From: a virus
Length of the DNA stretch: 20,225 bases
IMG/VR virus record: IMGVR_UViG_3300007514_000089
Location: 1 to 20,225 of that record
Reading direction: 5' to 3' (one strand)
The notes beneath the pieces were generated by a model. The model saw only the letters and a program-made list of their open reading frames with translations, did not search any database and was not told the DNA's origin. Below, in pieces: positions 1-18,234 of this stretch; position 1 is the first letter of the stretch, and each line of letters opens with the position of its first letter. A program made the position numbers and the translations under genes.

Positions 1-4
1 GGAT

Positions 5-1387
5 TTGGGGCCGCAGGTAAGCGACGAGTTTGAGCGGACTGCCCAGTTGGTTAGTGGTTTGGGTGCTTCTCAGGCGGGGTCTTCGCAGGATGCGATGGCC
101 CGTTTGGCTCAGGTTGCGGATATGGTCGCTGCCGAGCGTGGCGCGGCACCGGCCCAGTTGGGTGCTGAAGCGAAGTTGGCTCTTGGCGACGAGGCTTTCC
201 GTATGCTTCAAGGCTTGGATCAGGAGCAGACGCAGCGCCTTCTGGCGGAGTCGATGCGTCAGGAAGAGTTCAATACTCGCCGGGATGAGGCGATGGTTCA
301 GGCGTTGCTTGGCGATGTGGGTCGTCGTGAGGACTTCCTTACCCGTGAGGCAGAGCGCCTACAGGGGCAGGCGTTCCAGTCGGATGAGCAGGCGCGGCAG
401 AGGCTGTGGCAGTCGGGTGAGGCTGGCGCTCAGCGCGATTGGCAGGGCCAGCAGGCCATCGACCAGCGTGAGTGGCAGGGCCAGCAGGCTGTTGATGAGC
501 GCGATTGGCGTGAAGGCGAGTCGGCTTTGGACCGGGCCATGCGGGTTAGTGAGTCGCAGTTGGGTCGGGATCTTCAGCGGGATCAGATGGCTGAGTCTGC
601 TCGTCAGCGCGGTTTGGATCGTAAGTTCCAGTCTGATGAGGCGAGGAAGGCGGGGATCCGTTCTACGCAGGCGGCGACGACCGCGTTCAACCGTCAGCAG
701 CAGCAGATTTTTGAGGCGCAGACGTACGAAGAGAGCGTGCGGGTGAAGCAGGAGTTGGCTGAGTCTGCTGCCGCTCAGGCGATTACGCAGGGTTCTGCTT
801 CGGCTGCTCAAATGTTCTTGGGGATTGGCGGTGCCGAAGGCGCAGCCATGTGGGATGCGCTGCCGGAGGCAGCAAAGACCCAGATGTATAAGGACAAGGT
901 GGCTGCCGAAGACACGCAGGGTGCCCGTTGGCAGCCGGGTTCTTACGCGAACATGGTCGGCAAGTATGGGGAGGCGAACAGCGACCATATTCTTCATGCG
1001 GAACACATGGTTATGATGCCGGAAGAGGCGCACGAAGGGTATCTGAACAGTTTGATGACGACGGATGATCCGTTGCGAACCCCGGCAATGGATGCGAACG
1101 ATATTGAGAAGATCAATCTGTTCTATGCTGAGATTCAGGCTGCTAACGCTGCGCAACAGGCTGCTAATCTGGCGGCGGCACAAATGACTTTGAATGACCG
1201 ATCAACGGGACGACGCGGTGGACGCCCGGACGATAAGCCCGGACCCGGAAGGCCCAATACGGCTGGCCCAATCACGGCAGGGACCGAACAACTCGCGCCG
1301 GGGCAAGACGAACCCGGTTATTTCGGCTGGGTGGGCGACGCCACCGCGACGGTGGCGGGAAACATGGGCATAGGACCACGGCGCTAG
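5..1387 (+). CDS. Gln-rich helical phage protein with 11-residue repeats (probably virion-associated; 5' end uncertain)
   Basis: No family was recognised. The reading frame is open to the window edge; the first possible start is a TTG at 5, so the true start may lie outside the window. Residues about 1-120 are Ala/Gln/Glu-rich and look helical. From about 125 to 190 the protein is built of 11-residue units, four of which end in Trp (QRLW, QRDW, QREW, ERDW), a hendecad pattern typical of long coiled coils. Gln/Arg-rich helix continues to about 250. Residues about 400-460 are Gly/Pro-rich and probably disordered. It ends one base before the giant ORF, which suggests co-expression. Placed in the late strand upstream of the giant protein and lysis genes, it is most likely a structural or internal virion protein; that role is inference. 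Confidence 0.7.
   Translation: MGPQVSDEFERTAQLVSGLGASQAGSSQDAMARLAQVADMVAAERGAAPAQLGAEAKLALGDEAFRMLQGLDQEQTQRLLAESMRQEEFNTRRDEAMVQALLGDVGRREDFLTREAERLQGQAFQSDEQARQRLWQSGEAGAQRDWQGQQAIDQREWQGQQAVDERDWREGESALDRAMRVSESQLGRDLQRDQMAESARQRGLDRKFQSDEARKAGIRSTQAATTAFNRQQQQIFEAQTYEESVRVKQELAESAAAQAITQGSASAAQMFLGIGGAEGAAMWDALPEAAKTQMYKDKVAAEDTQGARWQPGSYANMVGKYGEANSDHILHAEHMVMMPEEAHEGYLNSLMTTDDPLRTPAMDANDIEKINLFYAEIQAANAAQQAANLAAAQMTLNDRSTGRRGGRPDDKPGPGRPNTAGPITAGTEQLAPGQDEPGYFGWVGDATATVAGNMGIGPRR
440..489 (+). repeat. 33-base-period direct repeat encoding hendecads
   Basis: The 17-base string TGGCAGGGCCAGCAGGC occurs at 440-456 and again exactly at 473-489. The 33-base spacing equals 11 codons, so the repeat keeps frame and encodes WQGQQA twice. 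Diverged copies continue on both sides at protein level. This looks like recent internal duplication of a hendecad unit. Confidence 0.8.
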
Positions 1388-1388
1388 T

Positions 1389-4300
1389 GTGGCTACGATC
1401 AATCCTGAAACCAGACGACGCGTCGCCTACGACGCTCTCGCTGGTGTAGGCAGCACCGCCGGTCTTCCCAAGCCGGAGATCAAACGGCCGAAGGTTGCTT
1501 CTGCGCCCAAGGCGCCCGTGGCGCCAGCGGCGCCAACGACGGCGATTCAACCTATAGATATTCCTGATCCGCGCCAGCGGTTGGCGAACATCTTGAATGT
1601 TGACCCGGCGAATCTGGGTCGCATTACGCCCGGAGTGGTTGGGCGTCCTGTTTCCGAAACGTCGGTGCGTTGGGCAGAGCAGGCGCATATCAAGGCGAAC
1701 ACGCCGTGGTATGTCAACGCGATAACCAAGGGGCCTGTAGGCGGCTTTCTCAATGCCATTCAGAAGCCTTTGGCGTTTACTACATCCGCCTTGAAAGAAA
1801 CGATTGATGTCTTTACTGGCGAGAACGCCAGTTGGGGCGACTTCAAGAAACAGTACGACGACAACTACACGTTTGGTCGGCTGCTTCACGACTACGACTT
1901 GCTACAGGATCGTGATAGCGGGTGGCAAAAGTTCGCTGCCGCAGCGATCGGGTTCACGGGCGATGTCGCATTGGATCCGTTGTCTTATCTGGGGTTGGTC
2001 GGCAAGGGCATCGGCTTCGGCGCGAAACTTACGACAAAGGCCGCTGGCAACATTACCCGCGAGGTGGCCCGCAAGGGCATAATGGGCCAGTTGCGTAATC
2101 TTGGCGGCGACGCCATGTCTGTCGTCGGGAAGAATATGAAGCAGGGCGACTGGCAGGCTTTGGCCGATGATCTCGGGCAGGCTGCCGCCGCTGGGGGCAA
2201 GAAGGGTACGGCCAAGGCAGCGGTGGTTGATCTTGGCAATCAGGGTTGGGAGATAACTTTCCGGGCTGGACCGGGCGTACCTTCCCACAAAGTTGTTCTT
2301 TCCAATGCGGAAGTGGGCGACCTGACGAAGATGAACGACCTGATTGGTCGCGCCATGAAGGATGGCGCGACATCGGTCGCTGGTGATGATCTTCGTTTTG
2401 CCGCGAGGATGATGGCCGATAGCGGTTTGGACAGAAATCTGCGTCATGGCGCGGACGAGTTTCTTGATTCGGCTGGGCGCGGTATCCGCGAGCAGGTCGC
2501 TGAGTCCGGGTTGGACGAGACTGTCGAAACGACAATCAAGAAGTTTACTGGCCGTTCAGAAGTGAGCGGTAACAAGTGGATAAACGGCAAGTTTGAACCA
2601 ATGGCGCGACGCAATATTGGTTGGTTGTCGCCTGAGGACGCAGCGAAAATGAAGTTGGGTTTCGGCATGAAGATGCCGGGGACCGGGCCCATTGGCAGAA
2701 AGTTGGGGATTGCCAAGAAGATCGATGATTTGTCCCTGAAGATTTTCAAGAAGGGGTATGACTCTCCGTATGGTTTGAGGTTGCTTAGTTCTGAAGCGCC
2801 CGTTATCGGAAAGTTGGTTACGGGTATCCCGCAGGGGATCCGCAACGGCATCTTGCGTCAGGCGGCGCAGGCTGCCGGTGCGAAGAAGATTCCTGATGCG
2901 CTCAGGCGTGGCGGTCTGTTCCGCTTGGCGGGGAAGCCTTTCGGCAAAGAAGGCAAGTTGTCGGGCAAGTTGGCTGACCTCAAGAATGTGGTCAGAGAGT
3001 CCTCTGACGGGGTTCTGATCCAGCAGGGCAAGCGCGTGATCCACGCTATGTCGCGTGGAAAGAATGTGGGGCGACGACTCAAGGTCCAAATGACCGCTCG
3101 TGTACGCGCCTACATGGATGAGGTGGATGCTGCCGCGATCGACAATGACGCGGTTTCTAGGAAAACTATTTATAGCGCTCTCGGTGGGAACGAGGACGCC
3201 ATTAGTGAGATTACGGCTGTCGCCCCGGATTTGGTCACCAACGGTCGGGAACTGATGGAAGACCTGCGGACGATGGCGAATACAACGAGTGGTCGTGAGG
3301 GCGGCTTCTTGGGGTTGGTCAACAACTATGTGCCGCGTGCTTTGACGGGGGAGGCCCGCGACAAGGTGCGGGCTGCTTTGGCGAACAGGGGGCGCGACAC
3401 CCCTCGTTTTCGGAGTACCGCTGGGCAGCCGAAGGGTCCAGAACTTGGACGTAGTTACATCTCAAAGCAGGACTTTGAGAAGCGTGTAGAGGACTATCTG
3501 GCGAAGAATCCTCTGGTGGATCGGAAGGAGGCTGAACGCTTCATCCGTTCAGGCGAGGGTAGCCCGGATGCGCGGGCTATACAGAGTGATTTCTGGGGAA
3601 CGGAACTGTTGGAACCCGGTTCCGAAACGGGAATGTTTGATCCCAGAACCGGCCAAGAAATAATGGCGCCTTCTATTGAGGATCAGATCGCTGACATTCT
3701 TGTCGCGTCCGGCGCGGACTACATGCTGTTCACCGATGACCTACAGGTCGCTTTGGACGGATATGTCAGGCAGGTGTCGCACCGTGCTGGCGAGGTTTAC
3801 GCCGAGAATGTCTTGTTCAACGAGGGGGTGCTACAGCAAAGTATCGCCCAGTACATCAAGTTGCCGGATGCTGCTGCGGTAAAGACAGCACGCGATATTC
3901 AGAAGGCTCTTGATGGTTTGCAGCGGGCTACCGCTGATCTGAATATAGCGATTCGGGAATCTGCCGATCCTGCTACCGATTTGGCGAGGAATCGTCAGCA
4001 GCAGGACAAGTTGAATGAGATCATCAAGCAGAAGTCCGAAGAACTTGAGCGTCTAAATGTCCATCAGGATGATCTGCTTCAACGGCACGTAGAGGCGCAT
4101 GATCGGTTCGCCAAGAACCGTAAGGAACTGCGTGAAGTCAACGATGAAATGCGTCAGTTGGAGGCGGAGATTGAGCGCACTCCAGCCGGTCCCCGGCTGG
4201 TTGCGCTTGAGAAGCAGCGGATTCGTTTGAACAACGCGTTGGCCGCACTCGCGGAGGATGCACCGACGTTGCGGTTCGCGTATGAGACTTTGACTTCAGG

Positions 4301-7300
4301 GACTATCCATGTGATGAAACTGGAGCGGCAGGTGGCCGGGATCTTTGGCACGCCTGAAGCGTTTGAGGCTTTTGTCGGCAATGACCTTTTACGTGGCCTG
4401 AATCACAGTGACATCGATGGTGGGTTGAGAGAACTGGCTGCTGCCGGGAACCTGCCGGATTCCGTCATCCAGTTGCCTGATGGCAGGTGGGCTTTCCAAA
4501 CGCCTGAAGGCAAGTCCCTTGAGATGGACAGACTGTTCGCGGATCTCAACGGGGTTCTGGAGCGGTTGGACCGTGAGGGTATGGGCGCGTGGGTGGGTGT
4601 CGAAGCAGAGTTGAATGTCTTCGACCATTTGGCCAACGATGCCGCAAAGATCGATTTCGCTCTGCGTCGGATCCATAAGGATATTGACGAAATGACTGAG
4701 GTCATTGGGGAATATTCGGAGATCGCGCCTGAGATTCTGGCACCTGACGGTGGCGGGGTCGTACCGACGCCTGATGCGGTGGTTGCCGCCAAGCAAACGA
4801 TTCTTGATGCGGTTGATGGGGCCGATTTGCCGGAAGCGGTGTTCGCTGATCCGGCCATCAACGAAGCACTAATGACCTATTACGGCGGGTCAGCAATGCC
4901 CGTGTCTCAGTTCATCCAAAGTGGATCCGAGTTGGATGGGATGCTGAGTCAAATCCGTTCAACGCTGGAAGACAGTATCGATGGGGTCAACACGAATCTT
5001 GAAATAATCCAGCAGGTCGCAGAAGATAGCGGGCAGCCTGTGCGTTTGCGGGTCGTCAGGGAGGATGGCAGCGAAGTCTTGTTGTCTGTTGCTGATTACG
5101 TTCAGATGGAGCAGCAGTACAGGGCGCTGGAGCAGTACCGTTCAACGCTGGCGTCACCTATTGATGATACGCGGCCCAGCATTGAAGACATTCTGTCCGG
5201 CGAGCAACTCAGCGACCAGATGGGCAGCAACGTAGGCGGGTTGTTCCGGTATGGCGGGAAGAAGTATTACGTCAAGAGATACGATGATGTAACTGCTGGT
5301 GGTGACCGGATGCCTCCGGGTACCGGCAGGAGGCGTCTTACGGGCGAAGTGTTGGGCAACGCCTTGTACCGGGAATTGGGTCTTGCTGTTCCCGACTCGT
5401 ATGCGTCACGCAATATGGCGGATGATTCGCTGTGGCATGTCGCTCCGTGGATAGAGGACATTGAGACTGTTGCTTCGTTCCGTCAGATGACGGGAACGGA
5501 GCCGTTGGATACTGTGATCTTCACAGATGGGAACGGGTTTCAGAGGTTGGGGACGGCGGCTGAAGCCGCCGAATGGGGGGCCGAAGGAGTGGTTCCTCTT
5601 GCGACGGCGCTTACACGCGGTTTGGCTGCCGATCTGTTGTTGGCTAATTGGGATGTGGTCGGTACCGGATTCGACAATATTGGTGTTTCGCCTCTTCATG
5701 GTTTAGTTCGGATAGATCAGGGTTCGTCGTTCTTCTATCGCGCTCAGGGGGCCGCTAAGGCCGACTTGGGTTGGGAGTGGGGTGCGATGTCTGACATGAG
5801 CCGTTCTGGCGGCATGTTGGACCCGGAGACAAACGCGATGTTCGCGCCTTTAGCCCTTGCTGGGGTACCGGAAGACGAACTGATGGGGGAGTTGGCTCGT
5901 CAGGTTCAAGCCCTCGTGGATTTGCGGCTGGAAGCGGGCGGCATGACCAACTTTGTGCGGCGGATGATGCCGACGCCGAATGAAGCGTTGGATGACCTTG
6001 CGCCGTTTGCCGACTTTCTGGAAAAGCGGTTGGAGGTATTGGCTGAACGGTTTGGCATTGATTGGGCGTCTGTTGATGACGCTGATTGGGCGCAGCGCGT
6101 ATTGGCTAAGCGTGGTTTCTCGGAGGAAGTGATTCGACAGTCGGGTGAAGCGGGCACGTTGATGAAGTTGTTTCATTTCACGAAGCACTCTCCGCCGCTG
6201 TCGCTGACTTCCTCTTATGGGGTTCGTGGAACGGGCTGGCATGACACGGCGTTTCTCAATTCGACTCCATCGAATATGTTCTATACCCATTCCGGCATGG
6301 AATATGGGTACAACCTGTTGGTGGATTTGCCATTGGGTGTTCGCAGCCTCAAGATGTATGGCCTGAAGCCGGGCGCAGATGAATTGGATGCGGCGCAAAG
6401 GGTGCTTGATCTGGGGGAAGCAGGTTCCCCCGACATATTGGAAGATCTGGTGGCCCGTGCCACTGGCCGTCATGGATCGTGGCAGGGCCACGCCGATGCT
6501 GCTGCTGGTGACCTATATCTGGATCAGTTCTCTCGCGTCTTTGCTTCTGATCCGCGTCTGGTTCGTCAGATGCGTGGGATCATGGAGGCGTGGGGTCCGA
6601 CGTTGGCGTGGTGGCCTACGGCACCGAGCACGGACTTTGTGCAGGTCATGGAGGCGATGCGTTATGCGGACGAACTCGCAGATGTTCGCGTGCCGACTGA
6701 CATCAGCAATTGGAATACGGATTCGGCGGCTGCCGCGATCATGGTTGACAAGGCCGCTAATGCTTCTTATAGGGATCGTATCGAATACGCGCTGTGGCGT
6801 CAGTTCTCCGAAGAGTATGACATCGCAGCCACTCATGGGGAGAGCGCCTACAGCAGCGGGCCGGGTTCGATCGAAGAGCCGCTAGAGGATTTGGCGCAAG
6901 ACTTTGCGAGGTTCTTGTACGCCAAAGATCCAGAGTTCTCACAGGCATTTGTTGCTGGTGATCCGTTTATCGATCGGGTGAACAGGAACCAGAAGAAGTT
7001 TGGAACTGCGATAAACGCAGCCTTTACAGGTATTCCTGATCGTTTGGATCCGACGAATAAGCGATTGGCGGAGGGGGCCTTTGGTTGGGATGGGCTGTTG
7101 GAATCCCCGGCGACAGGTGGGCGCGGTGGGCGCCATAAGCAAATCGTTGAGGGTTCAGGTGGACCCAAAGAAGAGGCTATGCGTCGGTGGTATCTGTCTC
7201 AATTCCATCACGCGTATCAGAATTCAATGTCAGCCGACGGCTATACGGCTGCCGCTTGGATAAACAAAGACGATGTGGTTCAGATACATGGGTCGCAGGC

Positions 7301-9956
7301 GGTTCGGTCGCATCGGGGATTCCCTAACTTTATGGCCGTGAATCCGGCTGCGATGCGGTCGGCAGATGTGAAAATGACGCATCGCAATATCTCTCGTATC
7401 GCTGAGGAAGGTAAGCCGCGACCAATGGATGCGGTCGATCCACGGGCGCAGTCAAGGATGGATCAGAACCTTGGCGTCCATGATGTTGACCCGGATTATG
7501 TCCCGACGGATGCCGATTTCGACCAACTCGCTGACGATCTGGCGTGGACAGGGGAAGAACCGGTCGGCGCTAGACCCTTTGATGATGTCTTTGAAGACGA
7601 CCTTCATCCGTTCTGGGAGCATGAGGCCCCCGTTGATAGCGGATGGGGGGCGACAACGCAGTCGATGCGAGATCATGCGCGGGATATGGAGGAAGCGGCG
7701 CTTGGTAAGGGCGCATCACCCGAAGAGGCGATGCGTGAAGCCAAGGAAATGTTGGAAGACGCATACTTCAATGACTGGTTGCCGCTTCACGCAGATGACT
7801 TTGAACTGGAAGACCTCGCCACAGCGAGCGATGGATTTGATGAATACTTTAGGGAATCCTCCAAGTGGCAGGCGGAGCGTGGGGAGACTCTGTTCATAGA
7901 GCCTGCCGCGTTTTTTGAATGGTTCCAAGCGGTATCGGATAAGCCGCAAACCATATACGGTGGATCAGCCGATCCGTCTTCCGTGTCGGCTTTGGAGGCG
8001 TTGGTTGAACGTCGCGCCCAGTTGGTTGCGGATCAACAGGCCGCAGCGTTGGCGTACCGCGAATCTTCTCGGAAGATGAAGTCGGTGATGGACTTTGACG
8101 CGGAGAAGGCCAAGATCGAACTTTCCACGCCTCCCGATTCGTGGGTTGCTTCTCTGCGCGATACGGAGAAGTGGCTTGTCGATAAGGGCATGACTGAGAA
8201 GCAGGCTCAGATCGATGAGGTTCTGGATACGTTGGCGCGCTTGGGCGCGCCAGTCGAAGTCCCCTTGGAAAACCTGCCGGATGATCTAATCGACTTGCGC
8301 CTTGCTGTAGGCGCCTTGGTCGAAGGCGATAACGCGATGTTGAACTTCGCGTTGGATGAGTTCCAGCGTAATGCTGAAGGTTGGACTGATCTGATTTCAA
8401 ATCTGCCCGATCAGAAGTTGGGTGATCTTCACAAGATTCCTCAGGCGGAAGAGATCATGGAGGATGTCTTCCTTTCGGGCTTCAAGGAGTTTGGTCGCCT
8501 ACAGGGCAATAGCACGTTGGTTGATTCGTTGATGGCGTCTGAAACATTTCGTGCTCGCGGTGGTGCTGCCGGGTTCTTGAATAAGTACGACAAACTGCAC
8601 AATCTGTTGCGCGCTTACATGATTGCGAAGCCGGGTTTCCACGGGCGAAACTTCTTGTCGGGCGCCTTTATGAATCATTTGGCCGGGATCGATTGGCGAA
8701 GTTATCGCCGGTTCATGCGCGCCTATTGGAAGTTCCAAGAGGAAGAGGCAGCCGCCGCCGGGTTGCCGAAGCGGGCTGCTCGTATGCGTAAGGCAATGCG
8801 GGGTCGGTTCATTAGTCCAGAGAATGTGAATGTTGCGGATGTGGAAATCGTCCGTGAACTGGCACGGACAGGCAGTCTGGGTTCCGGCGGTGGTCAGGTT
8901 GCTACCGAGTTCGTGGAGTCTTCAGGTCGCGGGATACTGGCTAGTCGGCTTGCGCCGAATACCAACATTCGTATCGGCGGGAAGGAAGTCAACGTCGTTG
9001 ACGCCATCAACCCGATGAATACACGCAACGCTCCGTTGCGTTTGTCGAAGAACTTCGGTATGGCAACTGAGACTTTCTTGCGGGGGTCACTGGGGTTCGA
9101 CACGCTGGCAAAGGGCGGTAACGCCAGCGAGGCGTTCGACAACATTATGAAGTTCCACTTCGATTATGAGGATTTGTCGGACTTTGAACGTAATGTCGTA
9201 AAGCGGGTGGTGCCGTTCTATACGTGGACTCGCAAGAACCTGCCGTTGATGATGGAGCAGTTTGCTCGTCGCCCCGAGGTGTTCAACCGCTGGATGAGTT
9301 TGAAGAAAGAAATAGAACTCATGTCCGAAGATGACGAAGGGGGGATCGTTCCGCGCTGGATGCAGCGTCAGGGCGCGATCCGGCTGCCGTTCAAGTACGA
9401 AGGCGAGAACATGATGATCTTGCCGGACCTTCCGTTCAAGGCTCCGCTTGAACTTATCGATCCGGCGATGGCGTTCGATAGGGATTTGGGATTCATGGAA
9501 CGCGCAGAGATCGCGTTGGGCAGTATCGGCACCCAGATCACTCCGCTCATCAAGGCCCCGTACGAGTGGAAGGCGAAGCAGAATCTATGGAAGGGGTACT
9601 CCTACGACGGGCGCGCCGAGGCTGTGCCCGGTGCTTACACGATGATTCCGGGCATGATGCAACTGCTGTCGATCGCTGGTGTTGCGAAGAAGAACGAGAG
9701 GGGCGATTGGACGATGCCCGACCATGCGCTTCATGCGATGGCCCAGTTGTTGCCAACGTTCACGGATCATCGGCGGCTGTTCCCTGACGAAGAGAAGTAC
9801 CAGCAACGCTCGCTAAGCAACTGGATTTCTTGGTTCTCCGGTATCGGTTTGCGTACCAACACGAAGTGGGAGCAGCACATGGAAATGCTGTCTCGCTCCT
9901 ATGACATGCGGGAAGAACGCAATCAGTTGCGGGCACTCAGGGGTGCGCAACTGTAG
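1389..9956 (+). CDS. Giant multidomain phage protein (2855 aa; likely virion/ejection protein) with kinase-like and ADP-ribosyltransferase-like segments
   Basis: GTG start one base after the previous stop. Layout by residue: about 1-75 Pro/Ala-rich linker; about 95-230 containing GFTGDVALDPLSYL, a hydrophobic stretch of a kind seen in large phage internal proteins; about 835-957 charged coiled coil; about 1283-1500 a kinase-like fold with K1296 in YYVK, an Arg/Glu helix, NWD1422..DN1430 as catalytic loop and D1443 in RIDQGSS as metal motif, followed by YRAQG; about 1594-1680 starting LFHFT (H1596), like polyvalent-protein ADP-ribosyltransferases; about 2411-2430 KPGFHGRNFLSGAFMNH; about 2585-2640 FDYEDLSDFERN and PFYTWTRKN. 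The last two regions resemble the conserved C-terminal parts of giant phage proteins. Family resemblance is by eye. Likely carried in the particle and delivered with DNA; the enzymatic parts could act on host proteins or in assembly. Confidence 0.8.
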   Translation: MATINPETRRRVAYDALAGVGSTAGLPKPEIKRPKVASAPKAPVAPAAPTTAIQPIDIPDPRQRLANILNVDPANLGRITPGVVGRPVSETSVRWAEQAHIKANTPWYVNAITKGPVGGFLNAIQKPLAFTTSALKETIDVFTGENASWGDFKKQYDDNYTFGRLLHDYDLLQDRDSGWQKFAAAAIGFTGDVALDPLSYLGLVGKGIGFGAKLTTKAAGNITREVARKGIMGQLRNLGGDAMSVVGKNMKQGDWQALADDLGQAAAAGGKKGTAKAAVVDLGNQGWEITFRAGPGVPSHKVVLSNAEVGDLTKMNDLIGRAMKDGATSVAGDDLRFAARMMADSGLDRNLRHGADEFLDSAGRGIREQVAESGLDETVETTIKKFTGRSEVSGNKWINGKFEPMARRNIGWLSPEDAAKMKLGFGMKMPGTGPIGRKLGIAKKIDDLSLKIFKKGYDSPYGLRLLSSEAPVIGKLVTGIPQGIRNGILRQAAQAAGAKKIPDALRRGGLFRLAGKPFGKEGKLSGKLADLKNVVRESSDGVLIQQGKRVIHAMSRGKNVGRRLKVQMTARVRAYMDEVDAAAIDNDAVSRKTIYSALGGNEDAISEITAVAPDLVTNGRELMEDLRTMANTTSGREGGFLGLVNNYVPRALTGEARDKVRAALANRGRDTPRFRSTAGQPKGPELGRSYISKQDFEKRVEDYLAKNPLVDRKEAERFIRSGEGSPDARAIQSDFWGTELLEPGSETGMFDPRTGQEIMAPSIEDQIADILVASGADYMLFTDDLQVALDGYVRQVSHRAGEVYAENVLFNEGVLQQSIAQYIKLPDAAAVKTARDIQKALDGLQRATADLNIAIRESADPATDLARNRQQQDKLNEIIKQKSEELERLNVHQDDLLQRHVEAHDRFAKNRKELREVNDEMRQLEAEIERTPAGPRLVALEKQRIRLNNALAALAEDAPTLRFAYETLTSGTIHVMKLERQVAGIFGTPEAFEAFVGNDLLRGLNHSDIDGGLRELAAAGNLPDSVIQLPDGRWAFQTPEGKSLEMDRLFADLNGVLERLDREGMGAWVGVEAELNVFDHLANDAAKIDFALRRIHKDIDEMTEVIGEYSEIAPEILAPDGGGVVPTPDAVVAAKQTILDAVDGADLPEAVFADPAINEALMTYYGGSAMPVSQFIQSGSELDGMLSQIRSTLEDSIDGVNTNLEIIQQVAEDSGQPVRLRVVREDGSEVLLSVADYVQMEQQYRALEQYRSTLASPIDDTRPSIEDILSGEQLSDQMGSNVGGLFRYGGKKYYVKRYDDVTAGGDRMPPGTGRRRLTGEVLGNALYRELGLAVPDSYASRNMADDSLWHVAPWIEDIETVASFRQMTGTEPLDTVIFTDGNGFQRLGTAAEAAEWGAEGVVPLATALTRGLAADLLLANWDVVGTGFDNIGVSPLHGLVRIDQGSSFFYRAQGAAKADLGWEWGAMSDMSRSGGMLDPETNAMFAPLALAGVPEDELMGELARQVQALVDLRLEAGGMTNFVRRMMPTPNEALDDLAPFADFLEKRLEVLAERFGIDWASVDDADWAQRVLAKRGFSEEVIRQSGEAGTLMKLFHFTKHSPPLSLTSSYGVRGTGWHDTAFLNSTPSNMFYTHSGMEYGYNLLVDLPLGVRSLKMYGLKPGADELDAAQRVLDLGEAGSPDILEDLVARATGRHGSWQGHADAAAGDLYLDQFSRVFASDPRLVRQMRGIMEAWGPTLAWWPTAPSTDFVQVMEAMRYADELADVRVPTDISNWNTDSAAAAIMVDKAANASYRDRIEYALWRQFSEEYDIAATHGESAYSSGPGSIEEPLEDLAQDFARFLYAKDPEFSQAFVAGDPFIDRVNRNQKKFGTAINAAFTGIPDRLDPTNKRLAEGAFGWDGLLESPATGGRGGRHKQIVEGSGGPKEEAMRRWYLSQFHHAYQNSMSADGYTAAAWINKDDVVQIHGSQAVRSHRGFPNFMAVNPAAMRSADVKMTHRNISRIAEEGKPRPMDAVDPRAQSRMDQNLGVHDVDPDYVPTDADFDQLADDLAWTGEEPVGARPFDDVFEDDLHPFWEHEAPVDSGWGATTQSMRDHARDMEEAALGKGASPEEAMREAKEMLEDAYFNDWLPLHADDFELEDLATASDGFDEYFRESSKWQAERGETLFIEPAAFFEWFQAVSDKPQTIYGGSADPSSVSALEALVERRAQLVADQQAAALAYRESSRKMKSVMDFDAEKAKIELSTPPDSWVASLRDTEKWLVDKGMTEKQAQIDEVLDTLARLGAPVEVPLENLPDDLIDLRLAVGALVEGDNAMLNFALDEFQRNAEGWTDLISNLPDQKLGDLHKIPQAEEIMEDVFLSGFKEFGRLQGNSTLVDSLMASETFRARGGAAGFLNKYDKLHNLLRAYMIAKPGFHGRNFLSGAFMNHLAGIDWRSYRRFMRAYWKFQEEEAAAAGLPKRAARMRKAMRGRFISPENVNVADVEIVRELARTGSLGSGGGQVATEFVESSGRGILASRLAPNTNIRIGGKEVNVVDAINPMNTRNAPLRLSKNFGMATETFLRGSLGFDTLAKGGNASEAFDNIMKFHFDYEDLSDFERNVVKRVVPFYTWTRKNLPLMMEQFARRPEVFNRWMSLKKEIELMSEDDEGGIVPRWMQRQGAIRLPFKYEGENMMILPDLPFKAPLELIDPAMAFDRDLGFMERAEIALGSIGTQITPLIKAPYEWKAKQNLWKGYSYDGRAEAVPGAYTMIPGMMQLLSIAGVAKKNERGDWTMPDHALHAMAQLLPTFTDHRRLFPDEEKYQQRSLSNWISWFSGIGLRTNTKWEQHMEMLSRSYDMREERNQLRALRGAQL

Positions 9957-9980: not shown

Positions 9981-10724
9981 ATGGACTACGTGTCGCGCGA
10001 TCAATGGGGCGCCATTGACTCTGGGAAGCGCCTGAAGGGCTTCTGGCGCCCGGTGAAGGGTGTTGTCATCCATCACACCACAGGCCCCTCAGACGGCCCG
10101 TGGGGCCGTGTGAGAGGCCATGACAGGTACCACGTACACACGAAGGGGTGGGATTCCATCGCCTACAACTGGCTTGTGTCGGGGGTGACGGGCGAAATAT
10201 TTGAGGGGCGGGGTTGGAAGCGCGGCGCCGCTACACGGGGATGGAACTCAAAGACAATCTCTGTCGCTTACATCGGAGATTCTGATGTGGAGTTGACGGA
10301 CACTGGCAAGGACGCGATCCTTGCCGTCGTCGGGGCCGTTCGGGAACGGTATGGCAGTCACCTATGGGTCAAGAGTCATAAGGATTTCTCGCCTACAACT
10401 TGCCCCGGCGAAAATCTGACCGCGTGGGTAGACGCGGGGATGCGAACGGAGGATCAGCCAACGAGTAGCGCTATCGACTGGGCCGGAATCCTGAAGTACA
10501 TTGTGATCGCTGGGCAGAAACATACGCCGATAAAGCGGGGGTCTACGGGGGAGTGGGTGGCTTTGGCGCAGAAGCGGTTGAATGACCGTGGCGCAGACTT
10601 GAAGGTGGATGGCATTTACGGACGCAAGTCCGTCGATGCGTGCAAGAAGTGGCAGAAGCAGTTCGCCGTGAAGGCGGATGGCGTTATCGATTCAAATACT
10701 TGGAGACTGTTGTGGACAACGTAA
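9981..10724 (+). CDS. Endolysin: N-acetylmuramoyl-L-alanine amidase (PGRP/Amidase_2) with peptidoglycan-binding domain
   Basis: Cuts the bond between muramic acid and the stem peptide of peptidoglycan to release progeny. The amidase domain (about 1-150) shows IHHTTG with H31/H32, the second zinc His at H133 in SHKDF, and C141 in TTCPGENL, matching the zinc triad of Amidase_2/PGRP enzymes. A short linker follows, then a C-terminal PG_binding_1 domain (about 183-246) with the usual RGSTGEWV..AQKRLN and VDGIYGRKSVDACKKWQ signature ending in DGVIDSNTWRLLW. Length (247 aa) is normal. There is no signal peptide, so export should depend on the holin encoded next. The ATG at 9981 has no clear ribosome site, and only 24 bases separate it from the giant gene, so it is probably co-transcribed with it. 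Confidence 0.93.
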   Translation: MDYVSRDQWGAIDSGKRLKGFWRPVKGVVIHHTTGPSDGPWGRVRGHDRYHVHTKGWDSIAYNWLVSGVTGEIFEGRGWKRGAATRGWNSKTISVAYIGDSDVELTDTGKDAILAVVGAVRERYGSHLWVKSHKDFSPTTCPGENLTAWVDAGMRTEDQPTSSAIDWAGILKYIVIAGQKHTPIKRGSTGEWVALAQKRLNDRGADLKVDGIYGRKSVDACKKWQKQFAVKADGVIDSNTWRLLWTT

Positions 10725-10879: not shown

Positions 10880-11181
10880 TGAGCGACGAATCGGAAGCCG
10901 CGTTTGCCAAATGGCAGGAGGAATACGGGTACGTGGCTACCGAGATTTACGATCAAATCAAGAAGACATCGCATCTGCTTGACATCGCTGACGGCAATCA
11001 CGCGAAGTGGCACGGCGAAGACTTAGGCATACTGGTGGTGTTGCCCTATGAGCATGTTGCGGCGTTCGCTGCGGAGAATCTAATGGGCGACTTTGAACGC
11101 AGCCCGCTTCACGGGCATGTGTTCTCCACGATGACCGCCCTGATTATGGGCGCAATGGATGCCTTATGTGAAGACGATTAG
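10879..11181 (+). CDS. Hypothetical phage protein (100 aa) after the holin
   Basis: Not recognised. ATG at 10879 overlaps the holin stop by one base (TAATG), so translation is probably coupled; there is no good ribosome site of its own. The protein is acidic at both ends (MSDESEAAF, ALCEDD) and mostly helical, with a hydrophobic middle (LGILVVLPYEHVAAFAAENL) that is not a clear membrane segment. Last gene of the + strand unit; its stop overlaps the stop of the convergent DUF1599 gene. A lysis-accessory role is possible from position only. Confidence 0.75.
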   Translation: MSDESEAAFAKWQEEYGYVATEIYDQIKKTSHLLDIADGNHAKWHGEDLGILVVLPYEHVAAFAAENLMGDFERSPLHGHVFSTMTALIMGAMDALCEDD

Positions 11182-11188
11182 TCTTCAC
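11168..11188. terminator. Perfect hairpin over two overlapping convergent stop codons
   Basis: GTGAAGAC (11168-11175), loop GATTA (11176-11180), GTCTTCAC (11181-11188): a perfect 8-bp stem. The + strand stop TAG (11179-11181) and the - strand stop TAA (11178-11180) both lie at its tip. No T-run follows on either strand, so it may act as a bidirectional hairpin terminator of the U-less kind common in actinobacteria; termination itself is inference. Confidence 0.6.
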
Positions 11189-11732
11189 GCATCGGCAGGT
11201 TGAAGATGTCATATTCCACCATCATGCCGATTACACAATAGCCAACGAGGTCGGTGAACGAATCCGCCAAAGGTTCGTTGGATGAGTCAGCGCCCTTGGA
11301 GATCAGGTTCTCAATGCGCGCGATCTTGTCGTGTATGCGCACAATGATTCCATCTCTACCGAAACGATTGATGTTCCCGTACCCGTAGTCCATCTGCTTG
11401 GCACGGAGCAGCGGCAGCAGGGATTCTGCTGTCGGATAATCCGTGAGGGCGTATTTCTCCGCATGGATGTCGGGTGATTTGAAGCCGTGGTCCTCCGCTG
11501 CCCGTATGGCAGCACACGCAAGCAGGACATAGGCCGTGTCCAGCACGGGTTCGTTGGTGTCGCTGAAGCAGTCCTCTTCGATCTGCTCGTAGCGCGCACG
11601 CATCAACTCCAGCGTGTCTTCAACGCTTATCTTTTCCTTGTCGGAAGGCACTTCGACATCAATGCGATATGCGCATAAACCGGCAGCATCTTCCCACGTT
11701 TCTGGACCGATTGTTGGTAGTTCCTCACTCAT
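11178..11732 (-). CDS. DUF1599 / nucleotide modification-associated domain 1 family protein
   Basis: The C-terminal part (about 109-172) carries the family pattern: LLRAKQMDYGYGN, then INRFGRDGIIVRIHDKIARI, then ENLISKG and LADSFTDLVGYCVIGMM. This alpha-helical family, Pfam DUF1599, was grouped by comparative genomics with phage nucleotide-modification genes; its reaction is not established. Residues 1-108 form a helical extension not recognised. ATG at 11732 follows AGGAGG with seven bases between, inside the end of the sigma-like gene (8-base overlap), so the two are one operon. It is the last gene of the - strand unit. No DNA hypermodification enzyme such as a thymidylate synthase homologue is visible in this window. 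Confidence 0.75.
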   Translation of the reverse strand: MSEELPTIGPETWEDAAGLCAYRIDVEVPSDKEKISVEDTLELMRARYEQIEEDCFSDTNEPVLDTAYVLLACAAIRAAEDHGFKSPDIHAEKYALTDYPTAESLLPLLRAKQMDYGYGNINRFGRDGIIVRIHDKIARIENLISKGADSSNEPLADSFTDLVGYCVIGMMVEYDIFNLPMRED

Positions 11733-12129
11733 ATAAATACCTCCTAATAGGTGAGTTTATGTCAGATTCCATTTCTTTCTCTAGGTGTACCCTGAGTTTC
11801 TTTAGGATTGAATCGCGCCTGCGGGCGACAGTTGTCTTGGGTATTCCAAGCACAAACTCAATCTGACGCAGGCTCATTCTTTCAAACAGGACAGCATTTA
11901 GCAGCCAGCGTTCCCATTCCTCCAGCGAATCAAGTGCGTCTAATACGATTTCTTGGAGGTCTATCCGTTCCTCCCTAGAGGTAACGGGTTCTTGGTGCGG
12001 CGACGCCCGTTGAAGGGCTTCGATTAGTGTTAGAGGACGAACCGCCCACGAGGGCGTGCCGTCCTCCAGACTCCCCTTCGCACGAAGCGGATCAAACAGT
12101 ATCTCCTTCTTCACCACGAACACCAGCAT
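11725..12129 (-). CDS. Sigma-70 region 4-like transcription factor (134 aa)
   Basis: The C-terminal half (about residues 62-119 from this start) reads as sigma region 4: LDSLEEWERWLLNAVLFERM, then the helix-turn-helix MSLRQIEFVLGIPKTTVARR, then RDSILKKLRVHLEKE. The N-terminal half (FDPLRAKGSLEDGTPSWAVRPLTLIEAL) does not show a clear region 2, so this is either a minimal sigma factor or a DNA-binding regulator of sigma origin. The start is uncertain: ATG at 12129 or TTG at 12162, neither with a good ribosome site; both lie inside the upstream gene in another frame, so translation is probably coupled. Could direct host RNA polymerase to late promoters, which would lie outside this window; that is inference. 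Confidence 0.75.
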   Translation of the reverse strand: MLVFVVKKEILFDPLRAKGSLEDGTPSWAVRPLTLIEALQRASPHQEPVTSREERIDLQEIVLDALDSLEEWERWLLNAVLFERMSLRQIEFVLGIPKTTVARRRDSILKKLRVHLEKEMESDINSPIRRYLYE

Positions 12130-12616
12130 ACGCCATTGGGGAATGAAGATATTCTTCTCCAATGACGCGCGTATTCTTCGGGTCGTAGCCTGAAGGGTCG
12201 CCCTTCTCCCACGCTTCGTCGTAGTCGATCCAACCCAGAATCTCCACGGCCCGGAACTCTGGGGCTACGGGTCGAACTACGAACAGGACAAGGCCAAGGC
12301 CCAACTGGCGCTTGCGCACCGCAGCGTTGCTGCTTGTGCGTACGCGCCTGACTTCAATGTTGTGCCCCACATCCGCCATGCCTTTGAACTCTTCGTGACG
12401 GTTACCGGGCCAGACATGCCCCGACCAGTATTGGTTGGTCAGTTTCGCTACGGCTAGTTCACCGACGCACGCCGCAGCCTGCGCCGTGCGGTCGTCTTCC
12501 ATCCGTTTCTTGTCGTAATGGGCGGCGTTGGCTTTACCCCAGTTTTCTATGTACCTGCGGGCGCCTACATGGAGTGCCCATTCGTACTCCCACGGGTGTA
12601 GTTCTACGAGGATCAT
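12092..12616 (-). CDS. Putative PD-(D/E)XK-fold phage protein
   Basis: I place the start at ATG 12616, where ATGA overlaps the RusA stop by four bases; a longer frame to 12778 runs through RusA and is rejected. The 174-residue product shows a possible nuclease core: E53 in VGELAVAKL on a first helix, D82 in GMADVG, E88-x-R90 in NIEVRRVR, then hydrophobic strands GLGLVLFVVRP and VEILGWI. This order (helix Glu, Asp, Glu-x-Lys/Arg) is typical of PD-(D/E)XK proteins, though Lys is replaced by Arg, so activity is unsure. Proteins of this form sit in phage replication clusters. Next to RusA and the primase, a role in DNA processing is plausible. Confidence 0.6.
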   Translation of the reverse strand: MILVELHPWEYEWALHVGARRYIENWGKANAAHYDKKRMEDDRTAQAAACVGELAVAKLTNQYWSGHVWPGNRHEEFKGMADVGHNIEVRRVRTSSNAAVRKRQLGLGLVLFVVRPVAPEFRAVEILGWIDYDEAWEKGDPSGYDPKNTRVIGEEYLHSPMAYAGVRGEEGDTV

Positions 12617-13005
12617 TCCTTGCTCGCTTTCACTTGAACCACAAGCCGGTCGTTGGGGATTATTCCCGCACGCTGGCACCCATCCAGACATAGTTTTATG
12701 TAGTTGTCTAGATCCCCACGTAAGGGGGTTTGCCATTGCTTCAAGGAGCGGACAGTAACGTACGTCGCTTCTTCGCAAAACGTCATCTCCACCGCAACCG
12801 GTCCATCAAAGACCGGCGCGTTATCATCAAGCGCTTCAACGTAGGTCTTTTCCGCTTCGATGGTTTCCTTCGGCGTGTAAACACGACCTTTCCGCGACAT
12901 TCGGGGACGACCCTTGGGCTGTGGCCTGCCGGGTACGACGAACGAGAACTCATCGGTTGGCCCTGCGGCCTGCGTCTTGGACGAGCCTTTGGATTTGCCT
13001 GTCAC
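12613..13005 (-). CDS. rusA: RusA-family Holliday junction resolvase
   Basis: Cuts four-way DNA junctions made during phage replication and recombination, which lets branched DNA be resolved before packaging. The 130-residue protein, near the usual RusA size, shows the opening VPGRPQPKGRPRM strand-loop, then the acidic core RGDLDNYIKLCLDGC with D98 and D100, and AGIIPNDRLV with D119, equivalent to the three catalytic aspartates of E. coli RusA. A start at GTG 13005 overlaps the primase end by 56 bases; it lacks a clear ribosome site, so a later start is possible, but none is obvious before the conserved region. The 3' end overlaps the next gene by ATGA. Confidence 0.9.
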   Translation of the reverse strand: MTGKSKGSSKTQAAGPTDEFSFVVPGRPQPKGRPRMSRKGRVYTPKETIEAEKTYVEALDDNAPVFDGPVAVEMTFCEEATYVTVRSLKQWQTPLRGDLDNYIKLCLDGCQRAGIIPNDRLVVQVKASKE

Positions 13006-13969
13006 AATCGTTGCGCCCCGTGAACTTTGGTCCGTCCTGCCACCATGCCCCCAGCCGTGAGTCTAGGTCTTTCGTCCATGACGTTACATCGGCTTCTGTG
13101 TAACCCGCTTCAAACATGGATCGTGCGAATCGATTCAGGAATCCATGCCTGCCCCGGCCAGCGCCGTGTCCACGATAGTACGGGACTGGTCCGTTGTTGA
13201 ACATCTCTGCTGGCAACCCGCGCAGGCGTGTGCCGTCAAGGTTCATCAACGGTTCCTTGCTGTAGTCCCGTCGGGGAGGCAGGTCTGGGTGGATGGGTTC
13301 CGGCTCCTTGTACAAGGCAGCCGCACGCTCCAAACGCTCAGGCAGAATCCGTCCTGCCCTTGCTCTTTCCATGAAGTCATCTACTTCCAACGGTTCGCCG
13401 TTGGAGTCGATGACCTCCTGCTTCCCTTCGGGCCTGCCGCCCCCGTATGGCAGACGCATGTAGTTCCCCGGCGGTCCCTTGAGGGAATCCTGCTTGGGGT
13501 AAACAGCGTCGTACGGGATGTCGGCAATGTCCAAGGCAGCCTTCATGGCCCGACGCATGGTCGATGCTCGGGTCCACTCCCTGTTGAACAACCAAATGTG
13601 GCAGCCCTTTGAACGTGAGCGTTCAACCCACGCTTGAATCTCCAGCGCCTCAAAGACGGTAGCGACGTTCCTCGCATAGACGATGGAATCATCGCCTTCG
13701 TCAATGTCGATGGCACCCCACATGCAATGCCACAGGTCGGGTTCCATCTGGACGTAGTAGCGGTCGTCAGCGTCTTCACGCCACGCATCAGGGCCACCAC
13801 GGGTCCAATGAGGATCGTAAACCATCGGGTATATGCCGATCATTTCCTCGCCCGATAGGTGTCGGGCGACAAGATCGGCGTCCACGTTGGCCCACCGGCA
13901 ACCGCCAGCGTCGGTTCCGTAGGCGTAACGGAAACCGTTGAACAGGTCTAGTACGGTGAACTCATTCAT
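12950..13969 (-). CDS. Archaeo-eukaryotic primase (TOTE-like)
   Basis: Makes primers at the replication fork. The catalytic domain shows WGAIDID with D88 and D90 binding metal, then ERSRSKGCHIWLF with S120 and H124 (the SxH-type nucleotide motif of archaeo-eukaryotic primases), then DAVYPKQD and GNYMRLPY (169-175), the layout found in TOTE-type primases of phages and conflict systems. The N-terminal IGIYPM..HW segment also fits. The C-terminal region (about 240-339) is helical and may help DNA binding. No zinc-ribbon is apparent. ATG 13969 has GAGG five bases upstream and overlaps the helicase stop by 8 bases; helicase and primase are thus made together. Whether it also acts as polymerase cannot be told here. 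Confidence 0.87.
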   Translation of the reverse strand: MNEFTVLDLFNGFRYAYGTDAGGCRWANVDADLVARHLSGEEMIGIYPMVYDPHWTRGGPDAWREDADDRYYVQMEPDLWHCMWGAIDIDEGDDSIVYARNVATVFEALEIQAWVERSRSKGCHIWLFNREWTRASTMRRAMKAALDIADIPYDAVYPKQDSLKGPPGNYMRLPYGGGRPEGKQEVIDSNGEPLEVDDFMERARAGRILPERLERAAALYKEPEPIHPDLPPRRDYSKEPLMNLDGTRLRGLPAEMFNNGPVPYYRGHGAGRGRHGFLNRFARSMFEAGYTEADVTSWTKDLDSRLGAWWQDGPKFTGRNDCDRQIQRLVQDAGRRANR

Positions 13970-14978
13970 CGAACCTCATCTGCTCCCACTGGATCCCCGG
14001 CTCCAAGAGCCGTCCACTGGCATGAATGGTCAAGTTCACTTCGGCCTTCTCGCCGTCGCCTGACTTGTTCTTCCACAAGCCTACGCTGATCTCATTCTCG
14101 TAGAAGGCACGGTCGGCAGGATCTAGGTTCGTGTCATCCCAACGCCTCCAAGTTTCGATCAGGAAATGGCTTTCGCTGGTGGATGCGTACCTGCCTGCTT
14201 CGATACCCCCGGCTGCGCCCCGGTTGCCAGACCCACGCCCAGACTGGTGAAGGATTACGCCTACAATGCGCCAATCAGATACCAGTTGCTTGAACGATTC
14301 GATCTTCGCTTGAACGCTGGCCGCATCGCCAGCGCCTCCGCCCCGGATTAGTTCCAAGTAGTCGTACACCAGCACTTCGGGACGTTGCCCGTCCCAGAGT
14401 TCGACCGATGCGATACGCATGGCCTTGTCGATGTCGTCCACACTCATACCCGTGGACTCAAAGTGAAGGTGCGTTTCGTCACGCATCAACTGTTCGACCC
14501 GTTCCCATGCGGTTGGGTCTTCCCTGATGAGCCTGCCGATCCAATCCTTCTGATCGACTTCTAGGCGAATGGCTGCGTACCTACCCCAGAACATCGTTTC
14601 AGTTTCATCCGGGCTAACCCAGAGGGTCCGATGCTTGCGGTTGCGAGCCACCATGTTCAAGGCCAGCAGCGTCTTACCCGTGTGGGATCGACCGATGACC
14701 GTGACCAACTGTCCAGCGCGGGCGCCGCCCAAGGTGGCGTCGTCAAAGACACGCACTCCGAACGACCACTCACTCCCCGATTGGAGATCGTGGCGCATAC
14801 GCCGGACTTGCTCACCCTTCGGTGTAAACAATCTCCGCAGGTCTGCTGCGGAGATCCCCTCTATTTCTGCTGGAGGCGACGAGGGCGCCGGGGGCGCAAC
14901 AGCGTCAGCCGTTACGCCCCCGGTTTCTGCGTTAGCGATTCGCTCTAACGCTTCCTCCAGACTCAGATGCTCAGCCAC
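13962..14978 (-). CDS. RecA-fold replicative helicase, DnaB-like
   Basis: An ATPase likely to unwind DNA at the fork. Walker A is GRSHTGKT (96-103); SPDETE (about 122-127) holds the probable catalytic Glu; Walker B is VLVYDYLEL with D206; VILHQSGRG (241-249) fits the DnaB/RecA sensing loop; GGIEAGRYASTSESHFLIE and LWKNKSG near the end fit the DnaB arginine-finger region. The DnaB N-terminal helical domain is absent; instead residues 1-40 are an Ala/Pro-rich linker. At 338 residues it is shorter than full DnaB. GTG 14978 overlaps the upstream stop by 8 bases. Its pairing with the primase supports a replication role. A recombinase-type or KaiC-like ATPase is the main alternative. Confidence 0.8.
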   Translation of the reverse strand: MAEHLSLEEALERIANAETGGVTADAVAPPAPSSPPAEIEGISAADLRRLFTPKGEQVRRMRHDLQSGSEWSFGVRVFDDATLGGARAGQLVTVIGRSHTGKTLLALNMVARNRKHRTLWVSPDETETMFWGRYAAIRLEVDQKDWIGRLIREDPTAWERVEQLMRDETHLHFESTGMSVDDIDKAMRIASVELWDGQRPEVLVYDYLELIRGGGAGDAASVQAKIESFKQLVSDWRIVGVILHQSGRGSGNRGAAGGIEAGRYASTSESHFLIETWRRWDDTNLDPADRAFYENEISVGLWKNKSGDGEKAEVNLTIHASGRLLEPGIQWEQMRFDE

Positions 14979-15699
14979 TTACCTGCTGGAGCCAACCCTG
15001 CGGGTCCACAGGGTCGGGTCGATCCGGCCAGTTGAACGAAGTGTTCTTCACCAATGCGGCGAAGTACCCGCTCTTGCCAGCGAGAGGATGATTACCCTCT
15101 CCGCTCATAAGGCACGGGACACCTGAGGCGTCCAAGCCGGTGGCCTTCTTGATTCGGAAGTCACCTAGCCCGCACTTGCCATTCTTCGTAACGGGAATGT
15201 CCTGATTCCGCATGGACTCAGCCCAGTAGTCGGCGGGGAACTGGCGTACGCCGTTCCCGAACAACTGACGGATGGCCTGATTACATAGGAACATTGATTC
15301 CCTGCTGCCGAACGTAATCCCGGCAGCCTTCTCTGCGTTCCAGATAGCAAGCACCTGCTGGTACTCTTCATCCGCAACGTACTTCGATTCGCCTCCGCTG
15401 TAAGCGGGAGCGTTGACCTGCGTTGCGCCGGGGAAAGCGGCAACTACCGCTTCTGCCACGGTGGCCTCAGGTGCGACGGCGATCGGTGCTCCGGCCTCGG
15501 CAGCGATGCCGGTCACAAGGGAATCCTTGAGTCCGGGCAGCGCCTGTGCCAATGCCTTTGCGTTTTCAATCGCAGTCGTGACGGGTACACCGTCTGGGTT
15601 GTGTGGCACCTCTGCGACAGCGAGTTCAACCGCCGCCTTCAAGATGACTTGTGCTTCAATACTGGCCCGCTCCTGCGGACTCATTGGCTTGAAAGCCAT
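14971..15699 (-). CDS. Hypothetical protein in replication cluster (242 aa)
   Basis: Not recognised. ATG 15699 follows AGGAGG with a nine-base gap. Residues about 1-105 are Ala/Val-rich and look like helices joined by a flexible region (VAPEATVAEAVVAAFPGATQ). Residues about 110-242 look globular with many aromatic residues and paired Gly motifs: GITFGSRESMFLCNQAIRQL, FPADYW, CGLGDFRIKKATGLDASGVP, SGYFAALVKNTSFNWPD. The gene lies between the Cas4-like nuclease and the helicase, overlapping the latter by 8 bases, where phages often keep a single-strand-binding or annealing protein; nothing in the sequence proves such a function. Confidence 0.75.
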   Translation of the reverse strand: MAFKPMSPQERASIEAQVILKAAVELAVAEVPHNPDGVPVTTAIENAKALAQALPGLKDSLVTGIAAEAGAPIAVAPEATVAEAVVAAFPGATQVNAPAYSGGESKYVADEEYQQVLAIWNAEKAAGITFGSRESMFLCNQAIRQLFGNGVRQFPADYWAESMRNQDIPVTKNGKCGLGDFRIKKATGLDASGVPCLMSGEGNHPLAGKSGYFAALVKNTSFNWPDRPDPVDPQGWLQQVSG

Positions 15700-15701
15700 A
15701 A

Positions 15702-16514
15702 CTATGCGCCTCCTATCGTTGCGCCTTTACACCGTGCGAACGCTTCGCACCATTTGCTAGAACACCACCAGCCGTTGTCGCCCAGCGGGTATGGACCCGT
15801 CTGGTTCTCAAGCAGCAGGCAGAGTGCCAACACCTTGCGTCGCAACCAGTCGAAGTGCGACTGGTTGCGCTCTAGATCCATGCGACCCACACCGTGTGGG
15901 TGTACGACCGCATACGAGAAGTTCGGTATGCCCAATGCGTAGCAGTAGGCGATGGACTGGACATCCCAACGCTCGTACTGCCACCGATCTTTCGTGTAAT
16001 CCCGGCTCGGGAACTTCCAGTCCCACAGCCGATCCGATTCAACAAGATCGACAGTCCCCGTCAACCGGACTATGCGTTCGTCGTCCTCAAACAGAGGAAC
16101 GTCGAACTCGTGCTCCACGGTTACGGGCATCACTATCGGATAGATTTCTTCCGCCCAAGCGGTGATCTTCTGAACGCCAGCCTCGTGGGCGGACTCCGGC
16201 GTGTACGTGTTCCAAACCTGAATGTCTGGACACACCCGCTCAAACTCGTGCTCAAACGTGTCAAGCATGGCGCGCAGATCCATCGGCGCTTCCGAATGAC
16301 CATCGCTTACATCCAGCACAGAGTTCAGGGCGTCTTCTGCGACCGCATGGCATACGGTCCCAAGCGTGGACGCATCCTTCATTGGTTCGCTTACAAGCCC
16401 GAAGATGTCGTTGCGCCAACGCTCCAGACACATGTCGGAAGTCTTGATGGACGACTGTCGGACCCACGTGTGGACCCAGCGTCCGTCGGCTGCTTTGTGT
16501 AATGGATATTTCAC
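15702..16514 (-). CDS. Cas4/RecB-like PD-(D/E)XK exonuclease with probable Fe-S cluster
   Basis: Likely processes DNA ends in phage recombination or replication. Numbered from this start, motifs are: C29 (MCLERW), H56 in GTVCHAVAE, D156 in LTGTVDLV, D165-x-K167 in LWDWKFPS, Q186 and Y190 in DVQSIAYCYALG, and C251, C256, C262 in WWCSSKWCEAFARC. One N-terminal plus three C-terminal cysteines is the 4Fe-4S arrangement of Cas4 and AddB. I chose GTG 16514 because GGAGG lies just upstream in a small hairpin loop and the next GTG (16544) would put its ribosome site inside a very strong stem. There is no Cas1 or CRISPR nearby, so this is a phage nuclease, not an adaptation module. It ends three bases before the next gene. 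Confidence 0.85.
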   Translation of the reverse strand: MKYPLHKAADGRWVHTWVRQSSIKTSDMCLERWRNDIFGLVSEPMKDASTLGTVCHAVAEDALNSVLDVSDGHSEAPMDLRAMLDTFEHEFERVCPDIQVWNTYTPESAHEAGVQKITAWAEEIYPIVMPVTVEHEFDVPLFEDDERIVRLTGTVDLVESDRLWDWKFPSRDYTKDRWQYERWDVQSIAYCYALGIPNFSYAVVHPHGVGRMDLERNQSHFDWLRRKVLALCLLLENQTGPYPLGDNGWWCSSKWCEAFARCKGATIGGA

Positions 16515-16527
16515 GCTGCCTCCCGTG
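16512..16527 (-). promoter_or_regulatory. Ribosome site in hairpin loop, nuclease gene
   Basis: In the mRNA sense: CACG, loop GGAGGCAG, CGTG. The stem is 4 bp, the Shine-Dalgarno is in the loop and the GTG start codon is in the 3' arm. It helps choose start 16514. Confidence 0.5.
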
Positions 16528-16535
16528 TCGTTACC

Positions 16536-16577
16536 TAGTATCACCTCCCTCCCCCTTCAGGGGAGGGAGGTGTACTA
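16536..16577 (-). terminator. Very strong 18-bp hairpin upstream of the nuclease gene
   Basis: CACCTCCCTCCCC (16542-16554) and GGGGAGGGAGGTG (16560-16572) are perfect complements around a 5-base loop; TAGTA (16536-16540) and TACTA (16573-16577) add five pairs with one bulged base. In the - strand mRNA it sits after the 50-residue gene and before the nuclease. It could end transcription, block RNA decay, or hide the purine-rich ribosome-like sequence in its 3' arm. There is no T-run after it. Confidence 0.7.
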
Positions 16578-18121: not shown

Positions 18122-18136
18122 ACTTCCTCCTGTATG
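18119..18136 (-). promoter_or_regulatory. Ribosome site in hairpin loop, ParB-like gene
   Basis: In the mRNA sense: CATAC, loop AGGAGGAA, GTATG. A perfect 5-bp stem with the whole Shine-Dalgarno in the 8-base loop and the ATG start codon in the 3' arm. Confidence 0.5.
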
Positions 18137-18184
18137 CGTAGAGAATGGTGTGCGTTGTTTGCGCAGACGCACCCCTGCGGGGCA

Positions 18185-18217: not shown

Positions 18218-18234
18218 GCCCAGACCTCCCTATC

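Follow-up and report, generated by a model that had tools for sequence, protein, structure and literature searches.

The window that we analyzed, a stretch of 20,225 bases that is the whole of IMG/VR record IMGVR_UViG_3300007514_000089 and comes from an uncultured short-tailed phage, encodes a giant protein that carries a kinase domain in its middle. This domain is well supported as a real relative of HipA and CtkA, with a predicted fold and a putative activity. We think it rather probable that the giant protein is a podovirus virion protein of the internal or ejection kind, with constant ends and an enzymatic middle, which would be injected and whose kinase would modify the host early in infection. 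Coordinates are given in Table 1.

Table 1. Features of the giant gene and its neighbors, with positions in the window
Feature	Position	Strand	Evidence or remarks
Upstream gene, 5' truncated	2..1387	+	461 aa in window; ends one base before giant gene
Giant ORF	1389..9956	+	2855 aa; starts with GTG; span includes the stop
N-terminal conserved module, residues 85-215	1641..2033	+	61-93% identity at residues 101-200 within family
Coiled-coil-like stretch, residues 835-957	3891..4259	+	Weak Pfam coiled-coil matches, 832-930; composition
HipA/CtkA-like kinase domain (predicted fold), residues ~1268-1555	5190..6053	+	AlphaFold2, Foldseek, 122-member alignment
K1296, beta-3 lysine equivalent	5274..5276	+	K in 37/39 giants aligned at this position, 80/80 others
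E1320, alpha-C glutamate equivalent	5346..5348	+	E in 40/40 giants aligned at this position, 80/81 others
Catalytic motif N1420-W-D1422 ... N1430	5646..5678	+	N1420 in 122/122; D1422 and N1430 each in 38/41 giants, 81/81 others
Mg-binding DxG motif, D1443-Q-G1445	5715..5723	+	D in 41/41 giants, 79/81 others
Second conserved domain, residues ~1585-2000	6141..7388	+	Beta core (1590-1660, 1936-1996) plus helical insert; layout resembles ART, homology unproven
Variable linker, residues 2001-2200	7389..7988	+	11-43% identity across relatives
C-terminal conserved module, residues 2380-2855	8526..9953	+	56-92% identity over 2401-2855, full-length relatives
Endolysin, Amidase_2 and peptidoglycan-binding domain	9981..10724	+	PF01510 4.8e-14; PF01471 6e-11; phrog_1493 3.8e-37

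The giant gene is conserved and has constant ends

The ORF list and the translation confirmed what the initial annotation had described, a single uninterrupted frame of 2855 residues that fills 42% of the window. Three full-length relatives (L002, L003, and L008) match the protein end to end at 66 to 67% identity, and its C-terminal region, used as the query, gave a family of 75 distinct ORFs with giant-family end modules, many of which are fragments. The dN/dS ratio of the giant gene against L003 was ~0.17, which indicates purifying selection and, together with the full-length relatives and the family ORFs, argues that the frame did not arise by chance. Identity is uneven along the protein, being high at residues 101 to 200 and 2401 to 2855, 20 to 60% over much of the middle among complete relatives, and low at residues 2001 to 2200. 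The long coiled coil initially placed at about residues 835 to 957 stands as a suggestion from composition and the weak Pfam matches.

Searches of the whole protein against Pfam, PHROGs, and PDB sequences returned nothing useful. The sole PHROG match, at residues 2556 to 2639, was to phrog_19395 ("tail fiber protein; host specificity"; E = 6.3e-5) and would speak for a tail fiber or host-specificity protein. We find this reading scarcely credible, because the match is a short one of 84 residues with an inherited annotation, a separate tail-fiber-like gene lies upstream in L008, and the giant protein bears a kinase of an intracellular type.

The ends of the protein recur in four phages. The N-terminal profile matched Jasmine gp29 (1.2e-12), Shocker gp37 (4.5e-9), DS1 (8.4e-9), and ct52p938 (1.8e-7), and the C-terminal profile matched the same phages in a different order (DS1, 1.8e-105; ct52p938, 1.1e-101; Shocker, 7.8e-20; Jasmine, 3.7e-15). 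The C-terminal region singled out earlier as conserved, residues 2411 to 2640, is indeed 64 to 92% identical to that of the complete relatives; conservation of the N-terminal region, which had been called internal-protein-like, falls mainly at residues 101 to 200. The large proteins of the four phages (1312 to 1803 amino acids) share homologous N- and C-terminal modules with the giant protein, and their genes hold the same position, before cell-wall lysis genes. By annotation, the next gene encodes an endolysin in both Jasmine and Shocker, whereas DS1 has a peptidoglycan endopeptidase there and ct52p938 a D-alanyl-D-alanine carboxypeptidase. The large proteins of these phages differ, however, in having neither the kinase nor the second domain, and the kinase profile found no match in any of the four. 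The absence of the kinase from these Jasmine-type proteins suggests that it is dispensable for the core role of a giant-type protein.

Gene order points to a virion protein

In L008, a block of same-strand genes extends from the major head protein across the tail and virion structural genes, and the giant gene comes after them. Gene order in Jasmine, Shocker, and ct52p938 is similar to that of L008 and the window; electron microscopy shows Jasmine to be a podovirus, with genes 11 to 29 as its suggested virion genes (PMC5513430). The gene upstream of the giant gene is conserved (762 amino acids in L008; L008:7711-9999) and matched nothing in Pfam or PHROG. Farther along the window, the minus strand carries a replication block at positions 11178 to 16544 (a DUF1599 protein, a sigma-70 region 4-like protein, RusA, an AEP-TOTE-type primase, a DnaB-like helicase, and a PDDEXK nuclease) and, at positions 17240 to 19374, two proteins that fall on PHROGs of unassigned function (phrog_5931, 9.1e-43; phrog_1221, 3.4e-23).

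Gene order and the end modules held in common with isolated podoviruses suggest that the giant protein is built into the particle, and it may enter the cell together with the DNA. The virion RNA polymerase of N4 is a protein that enters the cell with the DNA. The adjoining endolysin gene could instead mark the giant protein as a late enzyme that is not packaged and works inside the cell ahead of lysis. This is quite improbable in our view, since the giant gene follows a continuous block of structural genes, its end modules are present in the last gene of Jasmine's suggested virion operon, and MuF fusions occur among the relatives of the kinase.

The middle of the protein contains a predicted HipA/CtkA-like kinase

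A kinase-like fold had been read at about residues 1283 to 1500, and modeling, catalytic residues, and the family bore this out, with boundaries nearer to 1268 and 1555. The AlphaFold2 model, built over residues 1230 to 1990 from a 41-sequence alignment, had a pLDDT of ~88 over the kinase part. When this part was compared with the PDB by Foldseek, the best match was H. pylori CtkA (E = 4.2e-5, probability 1.00), and further matches were to human PRPK (Bud32), PI4K, HipA, and HipT, with probabilities mostly of 0.85 to 1.00 and E values of 0.017 to 0.09 for the HipA and HipT chains. Residues 1405 to 1557 match proteins from several unrelated phages, and an alignment displays a glycine-rich GSNxGG motif, the lysine of a YVK, a glutamate, NWDVVGxGxDN, and DxG. 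In a larger alignment of 122 kinase homologues, comprising 41 giants and 81 others, K1296, E1320, N1420, D1422, N1430, and D1443 are nearly invariant, as are GSNxGG, NWD...N, and DxG, although 3 of the 41 giants are without D1422 and 3 of the 41 are without N1430.

None of the libraries or papers that we searched gave the kinase family a name. Neither Pfam nor NCBIfam holds a model for it, and two members scanned against PHROGs gave no match. The HipA_C model (PF07804) did not match the giant protein in the Pfam scan; in 4 of 50 kinase relatives it matched weakly (best E = 6.6e-4), and one relative scored 16.1 bits where the cut-off is 30.5. Weak matches to Bud32 profiles also occurred in the relatives. 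A PDB search with kinase profile A2 found nothing, and one with profile A3 found weak ART matches only (best E = 0.003). No antitoxin gene lies beside the giant gene, whose neighbors are a long gene without a database match and the endolysin. The dN/dS ratio of the kinase was 0.18. In the tree, the 41 giant-family kinases formed one clade (support 1.0, one label change), and the kinase was therefore probably gained once and then kept in the giant family.

Relatives of the kinase are widespread and fused to other enzymes

The kinase profile reached at least 269 IMG/VR stretches that encode a relative, 80 of which were retrieved, as well as 23 bacterial loci. When 50 divergent members were scanned with Pfam, ADPrib_exo_Tox (PF03496) was found in 16, MuF in 10, NUDIX in 8, ART in 5, and Phage_min_cap2 in 1, the fusions to MuF and Phage_min_cap2 favoring a virion location. 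A custom profile detected a classical R-S-E ART in ~42 distinct kinase ORFs, none of them from the giant family. The initial proposal of a kinase and an ART in one phage polypeptide is thus upheld among the relatives of the kinase, L113 included, but the ART lacks statistical support in the giant protein itself.

The arrangements differ among relatives. The order is NUDIX-kinase-ART in both L034 and L063, while a GNAT domain accompanies two ART stretches in L056. L113 encodes MuF-kinase-ART in one polypeptide (L113:4594-7719); this gene, which probably belongs to a prophage in a Methylovulum MAG, makes the clearest case for a kinase and an ART packaged together in the head. A 2820-residue viral protein (L039:2731-11190) has one kinase and four PF03496 ART domains, and Actinomycetia phage DSL-LC01 encodes a 3289-residue kinase-bearing protein (L012:724-10593) shortly before its capsid maturation protease gene.

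The kinase was inherited once and is retained in all family members checked, in contrast to an effector cassette that is exchanged freely. This could indicate that its targets are phage proteins at the assembly stage or the giant protein itself, with the kinase serving as a processing or priming switch in the virion and not as a host effector. We consider this unlikely: the same kinase is found beside ARTs and NUDIX in unrelated phages, and the Jasmine-type relatives assemble without a kinase. Its occurrence beside other host-modifying enzymes in many other phages makes it probable instead that the kinase is injected as a means of reprogramming the infected cell. A broader proposal, which for us falls just short of an even call, is that phage particles carry a widespread family of HipA/CtkA-like kinases, in many cases with ARTs and NUDIX hydrolases in one polypeptide, and inject these enzymes as an early host-reprogramming set, the kinase having become fixed in the ejection protein in the podovirus lineage of the giant.

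A second conserved domain has an ART-like layout

The initial annotation had placed an ADP-ribosyltransferase-like start at about residue 1594. A conserved domain does begin in this region, with H1596, D1619, N1624, Y1657, D1712, R1716, S1946, D1950, G1951, Y1952, W1957, and P1986 invariant in 34 sequences and a pTM of 0.79 for a dedicated AlphaFold2 model, but homology to ARTs was statistically unsupported by Pfam, profile-profile, and Foldseek comparisons. Were the domain an ADP-ribosyltransferase of the ART-PolyVal type, the giant protein would be a kinase-plus-ART effector, which would add to our main explanation; we regard this as possible while leaning somewhat against it. The order of its elements resembles that of ART-PolyVal, with the LFHxT strand, which holds H1596, first and the DGY (D1950 to Y1952) and NPxAxxSxDV strands last. 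Relative to the H/Y/D pattern of ART-PolyVal, H1596 lies in a predicted strand and D1950 is invariant, but N1624 occupies the position of the expected tyrosine.

The hhalign comparison of the domain with ART-PolyVal relatives aligned LMKLFHFT on LMQLYHGT, a register that suits the ART reading, at a non-significant E value of 0.13. This test has little power, since a control comparison of the R-S-E ART with ART-PolyVal was also non-significant (E = 0.31). Foldseek found no significant match to the domain model in the PDB or BFVD, a comparison that the helical insert may dominate; faint BFVD matches to PolyVal ARTs, which would favor the ART reading, were likewise non-significant (E = 1.4 and 3.4). 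In Pfam scans, PF18760 (ART-PolyVal) had no match in the giant protein or the records of four relatives, and PF03496 had none in the giant protein or across 41 family middles. The custom R-S-E profile was negative in all giants, and a search for further ART-PolyVal members in ~400 bacterial genomes found none. A point in favor of an ART is the NUDIX domain matched by Pfam in the scanned middle segment of 12 of 41 relatives, which regular expressions for the NUDIX box undercounted (4 and 11); in the sequences of L026 and L027, it lies between the kinase and the second domain.

Discussion

In the mechanism that we propose, the middle of an injected virion protein would combine a HipA/CtkA-like kinase with a second, probably enzymatic domain, accompanied by NUDIX in some relatives, and the kinase would phosphorylate a host component early in infection. 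Points against this mechanism are the 3 of 41 giants without D1422 and the 3 without N1430, the missing kinship with Burro gp27, and the Jasmine-type proteins that do without the kinase. If the kinase is delivered in the proposed way, a HipA-like phosphorylation event would be timed to DNA entry. Virion-borne ARTs are known, while virion-borne kinases are little explored, and a single kinase family that occurs in no fewer than 269 viral stretches, has fusions to MuF, ARTs, and NUDIX, and is missing from Pfam and NCBIfam is a concrete target for study.

The kinase shares its Foldseek-matched fold, its glycine-rich loop, the N-D...N motif, and the Mg-binding DxG with the HipA and HipT toxin kinases and with H. 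pylori CtkA. Unlike them, it is one part of a giant phage protein whose gene neighbors structural and lysis genes, has no adjacent antitoxin, and stays under the HipA_C cut-off. T4 Alt, the PF03496 ARTs, and the MuF-ART fusions resemble the giant protein in the proposed virion delivery of host-modifying enzymes, and PF03496 ARTs occur in relatives of the kinase; the giant protein, however, has no R-S-E ART. Burro gp27 and Akoni gp31 (4491 and 4487 amino acids) are also giant podovirus proteins, and Burro gp27 is probably the ~250-kDa virion band (PMC7302621). Their genes precede the portal gene, unlike that of the window, and kinship with them was rejected, as the N-terminal, C-terminal, and kinase profiles detected no homology.

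The polyvalent proteins (Iyer et al. 2017) are, like the giant protein, very large phage proteins; they combine several predicted host-directed domains, and kinases, ARTs, and others are listed among them as injected early effectors (PMC5512222). Polyvalent-protein kinases are described as having no C-terminal subdomain and a conserved catalytic His (PMC5512222); by comparison with that description, the kinase of the giant protein has a HipA/CtkA fold, and a search for a near-invariant His in its 122-member alignment found none. No LPD or metallopeptidase Pfam domains were detected in the giant protein. Of the two or more host-directed domains expected in a polyvalent protein, it has one well-supported enzyme, the kinase, and a candidate second in the conserved domain of unassigned fold, with a NUDIX domain in 12 of 41 relatives. 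The giant protein is a variant of the polyvalent phage proteins, new in carrying an unnamed kinase family.
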